In this document: positions 20,661 through 28,751 of the stretch, piece after piece
How the letters are laid out: each line of letters opens with the position of its first letter
How positions within the stretch are numbered: the stretch's first letter is position 1
IMG/VR virus record: IMGVR_UViG_3300044950_000231
Coordinates: 1 to 35,344 of that record
Source of the DNA: a virus
Direction: 5' to 3' (one strand)
DNA length: 35,344 bases
Made by a program: the position numbers and the translations under genes
The notes under the pieces: model-generated
The model's database searches: none
Told to the model about the DNA's origin: nothing
Seen by the model: only the letters and a program-made list of their open reading frames with translations

Positions 20661-21101
20661 TTATCTTAGGCGTGTAAGGAAGAACTCAATTTCGGAAGTA
20701 GTCTCTGAATAGAATACCCTGAAGCCTACAGTCACTGCATATGCATTCATATCCGACTGATCTTTCACTTGAACAGTGACGTCGGTCGCGCGAGGCTCGT
20801 ATCTATTTATCACTAATTCAATAGCGTCAGTCAATGCGATCTCCGTGAACACATCCGCATTGTCAAAAAGCAATGCGACTAAACCTGACCCTAACTGAGG
20901 ATTGAATGGGCGGTCATGAAAGTTAGTCAACATCAAGTTTCTGATTGAGTTCTTGACTGCATCAATGTCCGTGACGGGGTTGATGTCTTTCGTGATCGGA
21001 TTGATCGTGAATGCTAGGTTAAGATCACTATAGACACGCGTTCGCGCAACGTTGCTTGTAATCCTATCGCTAGAATTGTAATCTGATAAGAGGGTACTCA
21101 T
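20661..21101 (-). CDS. gp25: Baseplate wedge protein, T4 gp25-like
   Basis: 146 aa, close to T4 gp25 (132). GPW/gp25 family features: DIDAVKNSIRNLMLTNFHDRPFNP with the LGSGL turn that follows, and the conserved YEPRATDV strand near residue 105 (the EPR motif). gp25 sits at the contact of wedge, hub and sheath and helps start sheath polymerisation. An exact TATAAATA ends 9 nt upstream of the ATG, so this gene opens a late unit gp25-gp6-gp7 position. Confidence 0.95.
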   Translation of the reverse strand: MSTLLSDYNSSDRITSNVARTRVYSDLNLAFTINPITKDINPVTDIDAVKNSIRNLMLTNFHDRPFNPQLGSGLVALLFDNADVFTEIALTDAIELVINRYEPRATDVTVQVKDQSDMNAYAVTVGFRVFYSETTSEIEFFLTRLR

Positions 21102-21110
21102 GTCCGTTTC

Positions 21111-21118
21111 TATTTATA
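21111..21118 (-). promoter_or_regulatory. T4-type late promoter TATAAATA (exact)
   Basis: Exact consensus on the minus strand in the 26-nt gap before gp25, with a predicted leader of about 4-5 nt (CGGAC). Confidence 0.8.
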
Positions 21119-21127
21119 GGACATTTC

Positions 21128-23170
21128 TTAAGCAACGGTAGTACCTCCATAAGTTCGCTGTGCTAATTTATACTGCGACTTCTTCTGAGTGCCTTTGCTG
21201 ACAAGATACACCTGAACTGAACCTGTGTTGGTATACATGTTAGGTGTCGTCGTATAAATGTCAGGCTTCTTATAGGTAAGTTGTGCATTACCAGTGTCCA
21301 TGACGGTGTACTGCCCTGATGGATTCTTTCCTGTAGGATCATACGCGGTTCCATCAGGATTACGCATTGCCAGAACAGACCCGCCAGGAACACGTGTTGA
21401 CGCACATGTCCTATCGGAAACGATTGGGCCATACGCTCCTTGGAAAGCCTCGGCATAATCAAGAGTTCCAATCTTGAATGTTTTACCGGCGGAATTCGTG
21501 TAGGTGCTTCCTGTTGGAATTCGTCTGCCCTGCGCTTGATACTTAGCAGTTAGTTCAGGCGGGCGTTGTTCAGGCTTGATGTCAAGGTATGTCGTGAAGT
21601 CCTCGGCAGGACCTGAATATGTAGTGACACCAACAGATAGGAGTGTTCCTGCGGCTAACGTGTTTCGGTTATAGAAGTTACGGATCACTTGTGTGTTACG
21701 GCTGATTTCATCGCCGATTGATGTAGTCCTATTGTTATATGAGTTCTTAATTTCAGCAGACCACCCAAGATTCTTTTGCCGCTCAAGGTCTGCATTTGCC
21801 TTATACTTTGACAGAAGCTCAGCATCCTTCGAAGCATCAATGGTTTTCGACACATCATCGTGATAACCCATGGCGAGAGTCGTGACAATGGAAAGCATCG
21901 CGGCCCTGTCAGGGTCTTGTTGTGACACGTCATCGATCTCAAGTGACTCCTTGAGCTTGAACGCGAACTCGTCGTAAGCATCCTTTGCAGAAGAGTTGTA
22001 AGTAGAAACAGCGCCAGCAGAAACGCCGGGAACGATTGGTGGTGTCATATTCGTTGGAGTGAGAATTTGTTTCGGCACGGAAGTACCATCAGCGTAGTAG
22101 TTAGGCTGTCCGCATATACCGCTTTCTAACGCCGCAGCAATGATCCCGTTAAGCCCAGAAACATTGCCAAACGTATCAGCGATGTATTGCATTTTCTGCG
22201 CAAGAGCAGCACCGGTCAGTCCCTGCGCTTCGAGCAAAGCTGCCATTAAAGTTTCGGGGTGTTCTATCACTGCATGCACGCGCTCCGCAATATCACTGAT
22301 AGTTTCAATTGCGGCTTCAGCAAAAATCACCGCGCCCGCGAGCTTCTGAACTGATTCATTCTTCGCAGCAATATCAAACAACTTCGCTTGAGCCATTCCT
22401 AACAGACGTTGTGGAATGTTTTTAGTGCAGTCCACGAGCGCGTTTATTGCCGCTACCTGCTCAAGCTCTTCAATGTAAAAGTCATCCAGAATGTCCGCTG
22501 AATCAACCGTCTTATTCACTGCTTCAGATTTTAATGTAGCCGGTGTTGAGTCATAACGAACACTCGCTATATTTGATTTCTTCGAGGTGTTAGAATAAAT
22601 GTCAGAACACGCGTCGTCGTTAATTTGTATTGATACCTCGGTGGTTTCTGTCGCGAGCAGTGTGACCACGTAATTCTGGCCGCTCCCTGAAATGTCGTAC
22701 ACACTGCATTTGTCTGTGCTACAGCTAATTCCGTCTGCTGTCAAACCCGTGACGTCATCATCAAATTCAACTCGGAACTTTATGTACTTGTTGTCAGTCA
22801 ACACACCGTCTTGAATTATAGTAGCACGTGGCTTGATTGCGTTAAAGCCTCGAGTAAACACGTCAAGCGCAGCTTCAAATCTTTCTGCAGACACCGGCGT
22901 ATCAGCATTCGTTTTTGAATTCAACGTGACGATCATATCAGATCTATGCTCGTCTGTTATAGTTTCGATCCGCCATTCAGTAGACGAGATTTTGCGAGTG
23001 TTAATGCATCGGCCGTTCTCAGCATAAACGTCTACTGTCCTGAGATTATTCATGTCAACGTAAACACGCGGAAACGTACCTACTTGATAGAATTTAGCTG
23101 AGAACAGTATTGGAGATTCGTTCGTGTATCTTGGGGAGATCGCGAAGAGTTCAGATTGGATTAAAGCCAT
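21128..23170 (-). CDS. Virion protein with Ig-like and possible 3D-type domain, 680 aa
   Basis: It sits between the gp5 needle and gp25, so it is probably a hub- or spike-associated structural protein. Residues about 115-207 look like a bacterial Ig-like beta domain (DDDVTGLTADGISCSTDKC, SGSGQNYVVTLLATETTEV). Residues about 225-480 are mostly helical (LEQVAAINALVDCTKN; LAGAVIFAEAAIETISDIAE). The C-terminal region about 590-660 has VPGGSVLAMRNPDG, VMDTGNAQ (Asp about 623) and KKPDIY, resembling the double-psi barrel '3D' domain of some lytic transglycosylases. That similarity is weak and catalytic activity is not established. Its ATG follows the needle-gene stop by one base. Confidence 0.6.
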   Translation of the reverse strand: MALIQSELFAISPRYTNESPILFSAKFYQVGTFPRVYVDMNNLRTVDVYAENGRCINTRKISSTEWRIETITDEHRSDMIVTLNSKTNADTPVSAERFEAALDVFTRGFNAIKPRATIIQDGVLTDNKYIKFRVEFDDDVTGLTADGISCSTDKCSVYDISGSGQNYVVTLLATETTEVSIQINDDACSDIYSNTSKKSNIASVRYDSTPATLKSEAVNKTVDSADILDDFYIEELEQVAAINALVDCTKNIPQRLLGMAQAKLFDIAAKNESVQKLAGAVIFAEAAIETISDIAERVHAVIEHPETLMAALLEAQGLTGAALAQKMQYIADTFGNVSGLNGIIAAALESGICGQPNYYADGTSVPKQILTPTNMTPPIVPGVSAGAVSTYNSSAKDAYDEFAFKLKESLEIDDVSQQDPDRAAMLSIVTTLAMGYHDDVSKTIDASKDAELLSKYKANADLERQKNLGWSAEIKNSYNNRTTSIGDEISRNTQVIRNFYNRNTLAAGTLLSVGVTTYSGPAEDFTTYLDIKPEQRPPELTAKYQAQGRRIPTGSTYTNSAGKTFKIGTLDYAEAFQGAYGPIVSDRTCASTRVPGGSVLAMRNPDGTAYDPTGKNPSGQYTVMDTGNAQLTYKKPDIYTTTPNMYTNTGSVQVYLVSKGTQKKSQYKLAQRTYGGTTVA

Positions 23171-23171
23171 A

Positions 23172-23957
23172 TCAGTTTAGATTTATGCGTGATGCAGTAA
23201 CAGAAGTGTCACCGCCTGAAGATATGTTGGTATGGCCGCCGGACTTCAACGATAATCCAGATCCAACATCTACTGAACTTGATCCGAAGACTTCTTCTGT
23301 TTTCGAACCACCAGCAAATACGTTCATGTTCCCCGCGGAACCAAGATCTAATGTGTTCCCCACGAAGCTTGCTTTTCCGCTCGTCATGATCGTGTTATTG
23401 CCACCAATCATCATCTGGTTCTTGCCTGAAATTGTTATGCGAGAGTCAGACATAGCAGAATGCGTTTGTTTGCCTTTGATAGTCGTATTGCCTTCCCCTG
23501 TTATGTAATCATCAGATGACCCGTGAATGACGATTTTACGAGAACCGCCGACGTTCATCGCGTAGTCAGACATTACTTCAAGCAAGTGCTGACCGCCGAC
23601 CTTCGTAATCTTGTTCCCCTTGATTGTCTCAATGGAGTCGCCATTGACTTCAGTAACGTGATTCCCCATGATAACAGAATTCATGTTACCTAACACTGTG
23701 ACGTTACATTGTCCCTCAATGACAATCGAGTCGTCTCCATGAATAACTTTGTAACCCGCGCCGTAAACGACAATCGTTCTATCGCCCGTCGCATTGATCT
23801 CTTCTGAAGTGCCTGACTTGTGCTGCTTGTAAATACGTTCTGATCCGAGCGTGTCGTTAACCTCGAAGATGTGGCCTGCTCTTGACCGCGTGATATTGAC
23901 AAAGGGGTACACCCCGCCTTTGCTGTTAGGTGCTGGAGCTGTCCATGATTCTGGCAT
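23172..23957 (-). CDS. Cell-puncturing needle, gp5 C-terminal beta-helix as a separate gene
   Basis: 261 aa. The N-terminal part carries the VgrG/gp5 hallmark HIFEVNDTLGSERI followed by H-K-SGT and a charged strand (residues about 29-60). From about residue 70 on, short strands recur every 6-8 residues (EGQCNVTVLGNMN, VNGDSIETIKGNK, VGGQHLLEV), as expected of the triple-stranded beta-helix needle. In T4 this is the C-terminal product of gp5 after maturation cleavage; here it has its own ATG, promoter and stop. It should trimerise and sit under the hub on the gp5 OB/enzyme protein encoded just upstream. Confidence 0.85.
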   Translation of the reverse strand: MPESWTAPAPNSKGGVYPFVNITRSRAGHIFEVNDTLGSERIYKQHKSGTSEEINATGDRTIVVYGAGYKVIHGDDSIVIEGQCNVTVLGNMNSVIMGNHVTEVNGDSIETIKGNKITKVGGQHLLEVMSDYAMNVGGSRKIVIHGSSDDYITGEGNTTIKGKQTHSAMSDSRITISGKNQMMIGGNNTIMTSGKASFVGNTLDLGSAGNMNVFAGGSKTEEVFGSSSVDVGSGLSLKSGGHTNISSGGDTSVTASRINLN

Positions 23958-23962
23958 AATGA

Positions 23963-23970
23963 TATTTATT
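23963..23970 (-). promoter_or_regulatory. T4-type late promoter element AATAAATA
   Basis: 7 of 8 matches, overlapping the stop codon of the gp5 enzyme gene and ending 5 nt before the ATG of the needle gene. This would let the needle be transcribed independently. Confidence 0.6.
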
Positions 23971-24937
23971 GGCCGATCGTTATAGCACTCCTAACATCAC
24001 AAAGATGATTAGTTTTTTCACGAACAGCATTACCGGAGTTTCCTCCTATTGACCTAAAGTCTCCGTTCAAATCAGACGCGGTTGTCGCGATGACGATGTG
24101 AGAAATTGCTTGAATGACGATGTCGCCTTTGTTGATTGACGTTGGATTGAAGCGTAGTGACACCTTAGGCGCCTTCGATCTTGCCCATGCTTCATATCCA
24201 CCGCCCTTGAATGCAGAGGCCGACTTAGGACGATCCGCTTCAGAGAATAAGCCAGACTGACGAATGCACCAAGTTGTAAAGGCAGCACACCATGGTGCAC
24301 GATCATTATAGCCTGACGAATAATCACATGCGGACCAATACTTCTGAATGCCAGCCCCTTGGTTCTCCGATGTTTCGGATACGCCAACCTCTCCTCGAGC
24401 AACGCTTATCAAGCTGTCAATGTTGCCGTTTACTTGGATAGGCGCAACCGGGCCATGCAATGTGGTTGCTGTGGTTCCTTGCCCAACCGCAACAGTGTTG
24501 AATGATGAGAACGCGGACTTTTGGTTATTGAATCCATCGTTAGACCCATACCCGAACGTCGTCGCACCTGTAGGAATGTCAGGCCCTAACACATTTGGAT
24601 ATGAGCCATGTGGATCCGCAAATCCATTGCCACGCTCTCCCGGAAATGAGGATGCAGAAGCAAGTGAACCTAGGATGACAGGATCTTGCAGTTCAATACC
24701 ATCACGGAAGAAACCAAATACCCACGAGCCTGGCATCAACCCGGTCGAGCTTTGTCCAATACCTGAGATGGACGGCGACGTTACCGGGAGAACACATGTC
24801 GACCATGGAAGATCCTGTGTTGGAATATCAGCCATCGACGGGCTGTGGTAATTAAAACAGCGAACCCTAACACGACCTAATTGCATAGGGTCGGCTATGT
24901 CCTCAACAACACCAGTGAACCAATTTGTAATGTTCAT
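23966..24937 (-). CDS. gp5: Baseplate hub protein gp5 N-terminal part: OB fold plus CHAP-type peptidase
   Basis: 323 aa. Residues 1 to about 100 form the gp5 OB-fold (WFTGVVEDIADPMQLGRVRVR, GSWVFGFFRDG, DPVILGSL), which binds the gp27 trimer. After a linker, residues about 172-323 resemble a CHAP (NlpC/P60-like) amidase/peptidase: APWCAAFTTWC puts the catalytic Cys at 217, SHIVIAT the His at 280, and Asn300 in GGNSGN is a candidate third residue. T4 has a glycoside-hydrolase lysozyme here, so this phage would breach peptidoglycan by cutting peptide or amide bonds (inferred). The ATG overlaps the gp27 stop (ATGA). Confidence 0.85.
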   Translation of the reverse strand: MNITNWFTGVVEDIADPMQLGRVRVRCFNYHSPSMADIPTQDLPWSTCVLPVTSPSISGIGQSSTGLMPGSWVFGFFRDGIELQDPVILGSLASASSFPGERGNGFADPHGSYPNVLGPDIPTGATTFGYGSNDGFNNQKSAFSSFNTVAVGQGTTATTLHGPVAPIQVNGNIDSLISVARGEVGVSETSENQGAGIQKYWSACDYSSGYNDRAPWCAAFTTWCIRQSGLFSEADRPKSASAFKGGGYEAWARSKAPKVSLRFNPTSINKGDIVIQAISHIVIATTASDLNGDFRSIGGNSGNAVREKTNHLCDVRSAITIGQ

Positions 24938-26289
24938 GCGTCCTTAATGATCTTCACTTTTGATGTGTATACGCCATTCGTGAATGAATGCGCAACGACT
25001 GCGACTATGTAATCACCTGACATTGACCTATCAAGTTCATCGCCGGATGCGCCTGCATAGTCGCCTTGATTAACCGACTTAGGAATCTCGATTGTAATGC
25101 GGCGGCCGGGGTTAAGATCGAAATCACCGTACACAACGATCTGATGAGAGATCGCTTCGAAGTTTGCATAGTATGACTTTGCTTTCGAGATGTTATCTTG
25201 AACAGGACCTGACGTGCTGTTAGGATTGCCTTGATAGTTCGTTCCTGCGTTAGTAGACACGTTCGAAATACTTGCGGACGTGAACTCGTTGAATGACTTT
25301 GGACCGCCTCCTTTCGTAGGAGATAGCATATTTTTGAATGACGAGAATAGATTCTTGTCAGGATTGAGACGAGCCGTTTTATTGTCTTTCGTAACATCGA
25401 AGATACGCTCAGCATACGACTTGGTGGCGAGATCAGTAACATTTGTTCTTGAAGCAAAGCCGCCATTCACCGCTTGATTAAGCTTGTCCATCTTGATGTT
25501 CGACTTCATGTCGAGGATGCGTAACGCGTTTTCGTTATATGCATCAACTGACTTCGACGCGTTCGCGATGAACTGCCGATACTCATACTTGCGGTACGAC
25601 TTGTTACTCTTGGACCAGAGGTCGGACAACGGCGTAATTAGAACGTCAGGTTCGGAAATCGACGAGTACACGAAGAACGGTGAACCCGTTACATCAAACG
25701 ATTTTGATCGCAACCATTCGATTGCCTTCAAAGGTGTTTGGATCGTGATGATACCGTCAAAACTAGAAACACACAACCCAGTTCGTTTCGCTTTGACTCC
25801 TAAGTCATTCTTCAGGATTGACTCGATGTTAGCGATAGGATTGCCCTTAGTTGACCGCGAGATACGTTGCAACATCGACGAATAACCAAACTTCGAGACA
25901 GCGACTATGTTATACTCCTGAACGTTTGGTTCGGCTGCGCTCTTTTGATAGTTAGGGTACTCCTTGACGTTCAACGACAGCTTAACTCTTTTGAGTTTGC
26001 TACCTGCCGTGATGTGTTGTAACTCGACATTGATTACCTCTTCGCCGCTTAACATGAAATCCTCGAAGAAGTTCAGCGTATCGCGCACGCGTAAATTCAT
26101 TACAAGGATAGGCGAGAACAGTTCTTCCGTCAACGTGAAAGACGTGACTATCGGGAATATGTCGAACACCTTTCCGTTCTGGTTTACACACTCAAGACGC
26201 ATCACTTCAAACGATGAAGGCACGTCAGCCTTATCATTAGGAGATCCACCCTTGGGCGTGTTAGGATTTGGAACTGGATTTGTTGCCAT
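24934..26289 (-). CDS. gp27: Baseplate hub protein, T4 gp27-like
   Basis: 451 aa (T4 gp27 is 391). It has the double barrel pattern of gp27/VgrG N-termini: FDIFPIVTSFTLTEELFSPILVMNLRVRD near residues 40-70, EVINVELQ, a middle YRQFIANASKSVDAYNE, and a C-terminal barrel with VYGDFDLNPGRRITIEIP and MSGDYIVAVVAHSF. gp27 trimers form the hub centre, holding gp5 below and the tube above. It is preceded by gp53 (TAA-C-ATG junction) and overlaps gp5 by 4 nt, an order that supports co-assembly. Confidence 0.85.
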   Translation of the reverse strand: MATNPVPNPNTPKGGSPNDKADVPSSFEVMRLECVNQNGKVFDIFPIVTSFTLTEELFSPILVMNLRVRDTLNFFEDFMLSGEEVINVELQHITAGSKLKRVKLSLNVKEYPNYQKSAAEPNVQEYNIVAVSKFGYSSMLQRISRSTKGNPIANIESILKNDLGVKAKRTGLCVSSFDGIITIQTPLKAIEWLRSKSFDVTGSPFFVYSSISEPDVLITPLSDLWSKSNKSYRKYEYRQFIANASKSVDAYNENALRILDMKSNIKMDKLNQAVNGGFASRTNVTDLATKSYAERIFDVTKDNKTARLNPDKNLFSSFKNMLSPTKGGGPKSFNEFTSASISNVSTNAGTNYQGNPNSTSGPVQDNISKAKSYYANFEAISHQIVVYGDFDLNPGRRITIEIPKSVNQGDYAGASGDELDRSMSGDYIVAVVAHSFTNGVYTSKVKIIKDA

Positions 26290-26290
26290 G

Positions 26291-27367
26291 TTATCCGTTC
26301 AGGATTTTGAAGTATTCGGAAATAAAGTCGGCGATTCGGTCACGACGAATAACACGAATCTTCGTCTTACGCTCGTTGATGATTGACTCCTTGGCGTGAT
26401 ATGAAATGTATTTGGGCGTGACGATGTCAGGATTAGTAATGACGTCATATGCAGATACTGTCACGGGCCCTTGGTCTGTGTCTTCATAATATTCAGCAGG
26501 CGCTTTACGATATGAATCCCATGCCATGTTACGCATCTTTTTTTCGACGAAATCATATTGTTGCATAGGAACGTACTGTTTACCAAACGCGTAATCAGAT
26601 TCTTCCTTTGCGATTGCTGCATTAATTTCAGCCTGTGATCCTGACGTGCTAAAGCGAGAAGGATCTATAATTGCAGACTCATCAAACTCAGCATACACAG
26701 CAATAGTTTTGTTGATGAAATCAACACGACCTGCATCACATGCATTCCATGAATCCGCTTCTGTTATTTCATCGAACGGATTTACCCATGAAAGGGTGAA
26801 GTAGGAGGACTCAAGGAATGTCTTGTTTGTTGGAGGCACACCCGACCCATCAACATTTTCAATCGTGTTCACGACTAACTGAAGTAACGCATTGTCGTAT
26901 TTGAGGATCTTTGCGTGTATCGCTTTATTTTGAGAAACAAGTCGAAGATATGGAATGTAATCTTCCCAAAGGTGAATTAGCTGAACAAGACCGCTTTTAT
27001 TAAGACCGTTGATATCAGTAGTGTTCTGCGGCTTGAATGTAATCGCGGAGTGTGGATCATACTCATCAACCATCATCCGCTCAAGTTGATTTGAGGATAT
27101 GGGCCATGCGTTATTGATACCTGCACGTAAATCATTATTGATGATGAAGAAGGTCCAGTAGTAATTCGGGTTATCATATAAACGATAAGAAACGGTATCA
27201 GGCCGTTCGCCGTCTTGGATCTCGTGATACGTATAGTAGGTAGCGTTATTCGCATACACGTCATTCACGTCAACATTCTTGACGATGTTGGTAAGCTCGA
27301 GGAGTGAACCACGGCCATCCATGTTATAGTCAATGGTCGGAAATTTTGCGAAGAAGTTAGTAGCCAT
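26291..27367 (-). CDS. gp53: Baseplate wedge protein, T4 gp53-like
   Basis: 358 aa, longer than T4 gp53 (196). Residues about 48-90 hold a LysM-like motif typical of gp53 (IQDGERPDTVSYRLYDNPNYYW, here split: IQDGERPDTVSYRLY then NPNYYWTFFIINN). The C-terminal region (YISYHAKESIINERKTKIRVI) also fits the family by recall. gp53 clamps neighbouring wedges around the hub. The ATG follows the gp48-like stop by two bases. Confidence 0.8.
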   Translation of the reverse strand: MATNFFAKFPTIDYNMDGRGSLLELTNIVKNVDVNDVYANNATYYTYHEIQDGERPDTVSYRLYDNPNYYWTFFIINNDLRAGINNAWPISSNQLERMMVDEYDPHSAITFKPQNTTDINGLNKSGLVQLIHLWEDYIPYLRLVSQNKAIHAKILKYDNALLQLVVNTIENVDGSGVPPTNKTFLESSYFTLSWVNPFDEITEADSWNACDAGRVDFINKTIAVYAEFDESAIIDPSRFSTSGSQAEINAAIAKEESDYAFGKQYVPMQQYDFVEKKMRNMAWDSYRKAPAEYYEDTDQGPVTVSAYDVITNPDIVTPKYISYHAKESIINERKTKIRVIRRDRIADFISEYFKILNG

Positions 27368-27369
27368 TG

Positions 27370-28248
27370 TTAGAATACGCTAGGATCGTTTTGTCTATTT
27401 GCTTTTGCAACTCTTTCATCTTCGGCGGCAGCCGCCGCTTTGTCAGCTTTAGCAGCTGACTCCTTGATCTTATCTGTTAATAGGAACGCGCGTTTGAAGT
27501 CGCCTTGTTTGAATGGGCGTTCCTTCAATGATTGAATGTCCGCGAGTGTTAAGGCACGAGATTCAATGAAGGTTAGTTGTATGTCAACCTCAACCGGAGA
27601 ACCGTCCTCATGAAACATGTTCATCCCATCATTGTATGATGTTTGTAAGTTCGTCAAATAGGATTCAAAGATCTTCGGGATGTGTTTAATGTCAGTACCA
27701 TTCTTCTTGAAGTTGATGTACCATGTTGGCGGATACTGCAATTGCAATGAATTGCCTTCAGGATAAAGACCTTCGCGGAATATGTCGATCATGTTTCGAA
27801 TGATTACCGACTCTTCATTAGATACCGCGATAAGCTTAAATTGAAACGAGAATTGCCGTGTCGAGATTCCAGTGAACTCAGTGACGATGTTCTTGTTGAG
27901 AGTTGTTCCTGTTGCTACACCAACAGCTGCCCGATTCTCGCCCCCCAAGGTTTTAGAACCGAGAAGCCCGACGAGTGACCGCATGTTCTGTGGGACTGAA
28001 TTACGGCCTTGTGTTAAGACATTCGAGAATGCGTCTGAAACGCTTTCAGACTTACCTGCATTTAGAATAGCGGCTCCACCAAAGCCTAGTTCTGAGTTAT
28101 TGTATGCAGCCGAATCGCTGAACTGTAATGACTGAGGAATTGGAAGGACGATGTAATCTGCATTCCGTGCCTTAGTCTTCTTTGACTTAAACATAACAAC
28201 AGGACGATCCTTTGCGTTGTTTGCGATTGAGGTAGGGAAGATGATCAT
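27370..28248 (-). CDS. gp48: Baseplate tail-tube cap protein, T4 gp48-like
   Basis: 292 aa (T4 gp48 is 364). The central part (TEFTGISTRQFSFQFKLIAVS, then EESVIIRNMIDIFREGLYPE) and the following PPTWYINF segment fit the tube-fold proteins gp48/gp54 that cap the hub and start tube polymerisation. The C-terminal 40 residues are a Lys/Ala-rich helix. It is the first gene of the long minus-strand block and has an exact TATAAATA about 24 nt upstream. It could instead be the gp54 equivalent. Confidence 0.7.
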   Translation of the reverse strand: MIIFPTSIANNAKDRPVVMFKSKKTKARNADYIVLPIPQSLQFSDSAAYNNSELGFGGAAILNAGKSESVSDAFSNVLTQGRNSVPQNMRSLVGLLGSKTLGGENRAAVGVATGTTLNKNIVTEFTGISTRQFSFQFKLIAVSNEESVIIRNMIDIFREGLYPEGNSLQLQYPPTWYINFKKNGTDIKHIPKIFESYLTNLQTSYNDGMNMFHEDGSPVEVDIQLTFIESRALTLADIQSLKERPFKQGDFKRAFLLTDKIKESAAKADKAAAAAEDERVAKANRQNDPSVF

Positions 28249-28272: not shown

Positions 28273-28280
28273 TATTTATA
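28273..28280 (-). promoter_or_regulatory. T4-type late promoter TATAAATA (exact), leftward
   Basis: Exact consensus on the minus strand in the 56-nt divergent intergenic region. It would drive the gp48-gp53-gp27-gp5 unit with a leader of about 20 nt. Confidence 0.8.
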
Positions 28281-28304: not shown

Positions 28305-28751
28305 ATGAAATTCTATCGCGGCAAGTTCCGTCCTGCTAACCCAGGCAAGTATGAAGGTGATTTCAAAAACATCGTCTATCGTTCAATGTGGGAGAGACAA
28401 GTCTTCCTATGGTGCGACCGAGAAACATCAGTGGTTGGCTGGTCATCTGAAGAGGTGATCATTCCATACCGATGTGCAACCGATAACAAGATGCACAGGT
28501 ATTTCATGGACCTGAAGATCAAGTTCAAGAACGGCGACGTCTACCTCATCGAGATCAAACCCAAGAGCCAGACACAGGAGCCTAAGAAGCGGTCAAGAAC
28601 AACGCAGAAGTACATCAACGAGGTGATGACATATGCAAAGAATCAGTCAAAATGGAACGCGGCTGCATCTCTATGCGAGCAACGAGGATGGCATTTCGAG
28701 GTTTGGACTGAGGATACGTTAAAGAAACTTGGTATCAAGCTGCTCACTTGA
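28305..28751 (+). CDS. gp4: Head-completion nuclease-fold protein, T4 gp4-like
   Basis: 148 aa, matching T4 gp4 (150). It shows the gp4 pattern: YEGDFKNIVYRSMWE, WSSEEVIIPYR, HRYFMDLKIKF and YLIEIKPK. This fits a PD-(D/E)xK/TnsA-type nuclease core with Asp69, Glu83 and Lys85, and Glu30 in the first helix. In T4, gp4 (gene 50/65 product) finishes packaged heads before tail joining. The ATG follows an A/C-rich leader with no Shine-Dalgarno. Confidence 0.85.
   Translation: MKFYRGKFRPANPGKYEGDFKNIVYRSMWERQVFLWCDRETSVVGWSSEEVIIPYRCATDNKMHRYFMDLKIKFKNGDVYLIEIKPKSQTQEPKKRSRTTQKYINEVMTYAKNQSKWNAAASLCEQRGWHFEVWTEDTLKKLGIKLLT

Follow-up and report, generated by a model that had tools for sequence, protein, structure and literature searches.

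The window, a virus record of 35,344 bases, carries on its minus strand a series of baseplate genes in the order tail tube cap, gp53-like, gp27-like, OB-CHAP, needle, ORF680, gp25 and gp6 (Table 1). The OB-CHAP and needle open reading frames were found exactly at the coordinates proposed in a first-pass annotation of the same sequence. The hub gene is presumed to be gp27-like on the basis of its phrog_350 match and its position. The synteny gp53-gp27-OB-CHAP-needle-ORF680-gp25 is retained in relatives, and the nearest isolate by gp6 is Methylophilales phage Melnitz (36.9%). On the plus strand, a TnsA-like endonuclease N-terminal domain (PF08722, 2.6e-18) is encoded at 28305-28751, adjoining the baseplate operon.

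A second, intact gp5 elsewhere was considered and rejected: a single Gp5_OB locus is present in the window record, itself a 35-kb fragment, and one each in three longer contigs from relatives, sized 82, 94 and 109 kb (G007, G009 and G010), two of which represent one phage type. Two OB loci are found in contigs G015 and G016, and Melnitz has a second, sub-threshold one. In most split loci the gene after the needle is ORF680, whose C-terminal region is conserved. ORF680 has no Pfam family, its best PDB profile match reaches an E-value of 0.24, and the mean pLDDT of its model is 68; against solved structures this model gave nothing above Z 7.3, with Ig-like matches only, to about residues 110-209. 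A double-psi barrel at its C-terminus is suspected from the sequence, and the model gave no support either way.

Table 1. Features of the baseplate region of the window, listed from the operon head downstream
Feature	Position	Strand	Basis or remark
Exact TATAAATA before tail tube cap gene	28273..28280	-	likely head of transcription unit
Baseplate tail tube cap	27370..28248	-	phrog_230, 5.7e-40
gp53-like baseplate wedge	26291..27367	-	PF11246, 2.3e-6
gp27-like hub protein	24934..26289	-	phrog_350, 1e-36, annotated as tail protein; 4-nt overlap with OB-CHAP start
OB-CHAP gene (gp5 N-terminal part and peptidase-type domain)	23966..24937	-	323 aa; ORF, Gp5_OB 2.2e-24, fold
OB domain, residues 1-113	24599..24937	-	extent of OB profile match; predicted contact to gp27-like hub
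Linker, residues 114-170, predicted disordered	24428..24598	-	pLDDT <50 over 94-170
CHAP/NlpC-P60-fold domain, residues 171-323	23969..24427	-	TIGR02594 match, model, structure alignment, triad
Cys217 codon, predicted nucleophile	24287..24289	-	invariant 25/25 and 35/35
His280 codon, predicted catalytic	24098..24100	-	invariant 25/25 and 35/35
Asn300 codon, predicted third triad residue	24038..24040	-	invariant 25/25 and 35/35
AATAAATA, late-promoter-like element	23963..23970	-	overlaps OB-CHAP stop codon (23966-23968); 13 nt before needle ATG
Needle gene	23172..23957	-	261 aa; triple-stranded beta-helix of gp5 C-terminal type; Gp5_trimer_C 8.8e-11
ORF680, conserved gene after needle	21128..23170	-	downstream of needle in relatives too
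Exact TATAAATA before gp25, comparison promoter	21111..21118	-	motif match
gp25 baseplate wedge	20661..21101	-	PF04965, 4.7e-12

The OB-CHAP protein

The first gene was described in the first-pass annotation as an OB fold that is joined to a CHAP-like domain with Cys217 and His280 and then stops, a description that is confirmed by the OB profile, the predicted fold and an invariant triad. The Pfam profile Gp5_OB (PF06714) matches residues 36-122 with 86.8 bits against a cut-off of 25, and phmmer relates the protein to T4 gp5 structures at about 1e-24 (T4 gp5 match 2-137). The C-terminal half is matched by Pfam CHAP (0.0098; 16.8 bits, with the cut-off at 26) and the protein by NCBIfam TIGR02594 (9.3e-10, 38.9 bits against 70.55). 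Both scores lie below the curated cut-offs, and the domain is therefore termed CHAP-like rather than a curated member of either family.

The structural model, built from 25 aligned sequences, has block pLDDT values of 80-91 for residues 171-320 and of 70 for the last three residues; values fall below 50 over residues 94-170 and are only moderate in the OB part (blocks of 54-80). VIA-align placed the modeled CHAP domain closest to the endolysin LysIME-EF1 (Z 14.6, rmsd 2.2, 125 aligned), followed by the endolysins PlyGRCS (Z 13.6), LysGH15 (13.2) and CHAPK (13.1), with CHAP named in the structure entry titles of LysGH15 and LysK only. Aligned in this way, residues 171-320 of the model have the papain-like CHAP fold. 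The absence of a CHAP-like fold from residues 172-323, which would have spoken against the first-pass annotation, is not what the model predicts, as residues 171-323 fold as CHAP. Assignment to the CHAP/NlpC-P60 fold is thus clear by predicted fold and sub-threshold by sequence. Cys217, His280 and Asn300 are invariant in all 25 aligned sequences and in all 35 OB-CHAP rows of a wider set, the window being counted in both.

No lysozyme family was found on OB-CHAP or needle among Pfam matches up to an E-value of 1. Together with the CHAP fold and its triad, this agrees with the proposed exchange of a glycosidase for a peptide or amide hydrolase, the hydrolase role being a prediction. The "different cell-wall target" that had been attached to this exchange is better worded as a different bond in presumably the same peptidoglycan. 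A GH75-like tail on OB-CHAP proteins of 448-451 aa, suggested by a sequence motif, was dropped when Pfam found none.

The needle gene and the gene junction

That the needle is a gene of its own is borne out by its separate open reading frame, which lies in a different frame and matches Pfam Gp5_trimer_C (PF22178) with 42.4 bits against a cut-off of 30.9. In the alignment, T4 gp5 residue 381 is the counterpart of needle residue 11, which places the gene start near T4 residue 371, about 19 residues past the T4 cleavage site between Ser351 and Ala352 (PMC3004832; PMC7650644). OB-CHAP, with 323 aa, is close in size to the T4 N-terminal product of 351 aa. Both the needle start and the size of OB-CHAP thus set the gene boundary near the boundary of mature gp5* and gp5C. 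The bypass of maturation cleavage that had been postulated follows from the gene structure, which leaves no covalent precursor to cut.

The OB-CHAP stop and the needle start are separated by 8 nt, the two frames differ (offset 2), and an open needle frame reaches just 11 codons back from its ATG. Read-through or frameshifting between the two genes, named in advance as a possible refutation, is not visible: there is no joining frame, and no slippery heptamer was found in the overlap of the two frames, as checked on contig L012, which has the same sequence as the window at this place. In a set of 18 junctions from relatives, of which one matches that of the window exactly, stop-to-start gaps range from 1 to 48 nt, the frame offset is 2 in 12, 0 in five and 1 in one, and a slippery heptamer is found in none; open frames overlap to some extent in 11 and not at all in seven.

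A terminal HxH motif, as in P2-type spike tips, is present in 12 of 22 aligned needles and absent from that of the window. A PAAR protein was found in three of seven searched records without HxH, in none of six with it and in neither of two whose HxH status was not checked, numbers too small to suggest a link.

A putative late promoter before the needle

The first-pass annotation had also assigned the needle a late-promoter element of its own. This element, AATAAATA, is one mismatch away from TATAAATA, and one-mismatch matches to TATAAATA number 27 in the window against 25 expected, which is chance level; AATAAATA in the window is therefore by itself no evidence of a promoter, and support comes from comparison only. 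Exact TATAAATA occurs six times in the window against 0.84 expected; one copy precedes the tail tube cap gene by 32 nt and another precedes gp25 by 17 nt.

For the comparison, 49 loci with a separate needle were grouped into 20 clusters at 80% identity (176 loci and 38 clusters after more were added), and loci truncated upstream of a gene did not enter the count for that gene. The sequence NATAAATA, which is the late motif in cyanophage S-PM2 (PMC2984593), precedes the needle by 9-45 nt in 15 of the 20 split-needle clusters (14/19 after reclustering with the added loci), at 13-17 nt in 14 and at 32 nt in one. It precedes gp25 in all 19 clusters, at 12-19 nt, and the tail tube cap gene in nine of 14, whereas it is found before gp53 in 1/16, gp27 in 0/19, the OB gene in 1/20 and ORF680 in 0/19 (together 2/74). 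Comparing the needle with these four neighboring genes, Fisher's test gives p = 2e-11, a value that is not a true probability because the clusters share ancestry and the motif was first seen in the same set. In held-out clusters NATAAATA precedes the needle in 6/19 (5/18 adjoining an OB gene and 1/1 with the upstream part cut off) against 3/47 for gp27, OB gene and ORF680, and gp25 keeps it in 15/17.

Our first reading, that the motif before the needle is due to chance, was thus overturned by the comparison, which the held-out set then weakened. What stands of the original claim is an element that is well conserved in the clade of the window and not across all split-needle phages, and whose promoter role, supported by this comparison, is putative. 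With the motif starting at -13 and a spacing of 13-17 nt, the leader would measure about 0-4 nt. The first base of the 15 in-sample needle sites is A in ten, G in four and C in one, and never T, which would be explained by the OB-CHAP stop codon, as this codon contains or adjoins the base in most sites; a cluster found later (L127) has T. Among the T4 late sites listed, A occupies -13 in nine of 50 (PMC2988020). In relatives, the motifs before gp25 and needle mostly lie 12-19 nt from the ATG and, if they are promoters, would yield nearly leaderless late transcripts.

Arrangements among relatives and in known phages

From each of four scans for relatives, which gave 303 to 599 matching stretches, the 80 best loci were kept, and 286 complete OB open reading frames in 70 clusters were tallied by arrangement. 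Among the matches listed, OB-CHAP with a separate needle accounts for 28 of these clusters and an OB-needle fusion without a CHAP match, rows with other enzyme domains included, for 29; OB without CHAP and with a separate needle (six), no needle seen downstream (five) and a fused OB-CHAP-needle (two) make up the others. Few relatives came from scanning with the needle of the window or the CHAP-only protein of L062. When 54 OB domains were placed in a tree, the window fell into a clade of 30 rows (support 99/92), of which 28 are split and two have no needle seen. Split rows also occur outside this clade, in Delftia phage PhiW-14 and Acinetobacter phage SH-Ab 15599 and in Melnitz; deep placement in this tree is unsure owing to long branches.

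The first-pass annotation had framed the locus against T4 alone, which overstated its novelty, as both a CHAP domain in gp5 and a split gp5 are already in print for other phages. The gp5 of CBA120, described in 2011, carries a CHAP/TIGR02594 region in place of lysozyme (PMC3184105), and for Atu_ph04, phiM9 and P10VF a split T4 gp5 is stated in a paper of 2019 (PMC6630229). The Ackermannviridae (CBA120, AG3 and May) resemble the window in that CHAP/TIGR02594 replaces the lysozyme between OB domain and needle; they differ in having one fused gene of about 540 aa instead of two.

The Pootjesviridae (Sinorhizobium phage phiM9, Rhizobium phage P10VF and Agrobacterium phage Atu_ph04) resemble the window in that the needle part is encoded apart from an OB-CHAP/NlpC-P60 protein, which in their case measures about 290 aa; for phiM9, NLPC_P60 is noted in the record. 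No needle is annotated or recognized adjoining their OB gene, whereas the two genes of the window lie 8 nt apart; in Atu_ph04 the needle is part of an open frame of 872 aa at a distance of about 96 kb from the OB gene, and by eye this frame also contains a lysozyme-like stretch. The Pfam needle profile found nothing in Y68, phiM9 and ORM_20, and the same profile also missed the needles of PhiW-14 and SH-Ab 15599.

In PhiW-14 and SH-Ab 15599 the OB-CHAP gene is directly followed by a separate needle gene, as in the window; unlike the window, their needles have a GH19-like region in front (3e-5 and 0.073, both below cut-off) and the late-promoter motif is absent. Combined with OB-CHAP, such GH19-like needles (L002:4984-6750 in PhiW-14; L004:4908-6368 in SH-Ab 15599) could bring two wall enzymes to one spike. 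The OB-CHAP gene of PhiW-14 (L002:3998-4984) is unannotated in its GenBank/RefSeq record. Melnitz likewise has an OB-peptidase gene adjoining a separate needle gene, although its peptidase is VanY/M15-like rather than CHAP and its needle has, by weak matches, an OB remnant and an M15-like end; the accessible portions of the Melnitz paper (PMC9004378) make no mention of an adjacent split or promoter. T4 gp5 itself has in common with the window the OB domain, the needle and the place beside gp27, and the split lies close to its cleavage site; it differs by its lysozyme domain and by being one gene, the precursor being cut at Ser351/Ala352. In the accessible text of openly licensed papers we found no description of an adjacent split or of a promoter between the parts. 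Measured against that literature, the adjacent arrangement, the promoter-like site overlapping the stop codon and the extent of gp5 dismantling in the clade are new.

A proposed spike encoded by two genes

We consider it probable that the locus fills the gp5 slot of a T4-type tail with two genes in place of one precursor, taking spike, enzyme and promoter together. Profile matches and the model show an OB domain joined to a predicted CHAP-fold hydrolase with an intact Cys-His-Asn triad, followed by a second protein that is the needle. Three OB-CHAP chains would sit on the gp27 trimer and three needle chains would form the beta-helix; binding of the two without a covalent link would then lead to the nine-chain complex that in T4 is the outcome of proteolysis. 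Upon tail contraction the needle would pierce the outer layer, and the CHAP domains would cut a peptide or amide bond in the peptidoglycan. Besides read-through transcription that starts at the operon head, the needle may have transcripts of its own from a T4-type late promoter embedded where OB-CHAP ends. On this proposal, a T4-type puncturing device need not arise as a single cleaved precursor, the genes in the clade of the window being divided near the border of mature gp5* and gp5C, and a conserved promoter-like site at the gene boundary would allow the supply of needle to be set apart from that of enzyme. The relatives, being fused, two-part, three-part and enzyme-less, form a natural series for comparing the parts played by covalent linkage, by the type of enzyme and by hub stoichiometry.

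With regard to transcription, AATAAATA at the junction might instead be a termination and re-initiation or A-rich translation signal and no promoter at all, with the needle made from the operon transcript only. The chance frequency of one-mismatch motifs in the window would fit such a role, as would the lack of T at -13 in the 15 in-sample needle sites, for most of which stop-codon overlap would account, and the lack of the exact motif in 13 of the 19 later clusters, many of which have other A/T-rich sequence there. We nevertheless judge it unlikely, as the needle shares its 7-mer with gp25 of the same loci, at a spacing (13-17 nt) close to that at gp25 (12-19 nt), and as gp27 and ORF680 are never preceded by the motif and gp53 and the OB gene hardly ever are. 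There is hardly any chance that a sequencing error has divided a single gene into the two frames, or that programmed frameshifting or read-through joins them: the predominance of frame offset 2 (12/18 relatives) and the overlap of open frames in 11/18 could be read in this sense, but this split recurs in many independent contigs, offsets of 0, 1 and 2 all exist with gaps of 1 to 48 nt, and the slippery heptamer (0/18) and, in 7/18, any frame overlap are missing.

The two remaining alternatives to a two-gene spike concern the proteins. A CHAP domain that is structural or inactive has a precedent in the degenerate CHAP remnants of some relatives, where the His is changed to Tyr; retention of Cys, His and Asn in 35/35 OB-CHAP rows makes this very unlikely for the window. 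It is similarly improbable, to a high degree, that OB-CHAP and needle do not share a spike, with the needle mounted on another hub protein. The needle part of Atu_ph04, some 96 kb away from its OB gene, illustrates that linkage is not required; against a needle on another hub stand the adjacency of the two genes in 28 of 70 OB clusters among the matches listed and the single OB locus in the window record and its larger relatives.

Further dismantling of gp5 in relatives

In several relatives (L103-L106, L115-L118, L120 and L123) three genes are present, encoding an OB-only protein, a CHAP remnant with a C-terminal extension and the needle; L109-L114 have the same three-gene look with a more divergent CHAP remnant (read in L109 and L111). 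The OB protein of L106 aligns with residues 1-184 of the L052 OB-CHAP (67%) and the next protein with residues 184 onward (38%), which locates the break just before the catalytic Cys. All six CHAP remnants that were read (L103, L106, L109, L111, L115 and L116) have Tyr in place of His. Peptidase_M15_3 is matched in L106 (8e-15) and L103 (2e-14), the C-terminal regions of L109, L115 and L116 have no Pfam match above cut-off, and L119 encodes an OB-VanY protein (2.5e-7). Loci such as L052, L062 and L063 combine OB-only, OB-CHAP and CHAP-only genes with a needle.

We tentatively speculate, while doubting that it will hold in full, that gp5 is here a kit of exchangeable base, enzyme and needle genes in one slot. 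In one branch, the gene boundary would run through CHAP, so that the first helix stays with the OB protein and the part with the catalytic Cys starts the enzyme protein; with its His changed to Tyr, the domain, put together again from its two chains, would act as a docking module for swapped-in enzymes (an M15 peptidase in some loci, other domains elsewhere). In another branch, bare and CHAP-bearing OB paralogues would form a mixed trimer and so set the number of enzyme heads per spike. A mixed trimer of bare OB and OB-CHAP is possible in loci such as L052, L062 and L063, and VgrG heterotrimers of type VI secretion systems offer a comparison. For the system of one study, VgrG1-VgrG2 heterotrimers were argued against (PMC4924876). 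In L052-L064 and L097-L102 the needle is preceded by two gp5-type OB genes in tandem, of which one is bare and the other has CHAP, often together with a CHAP-only gene.
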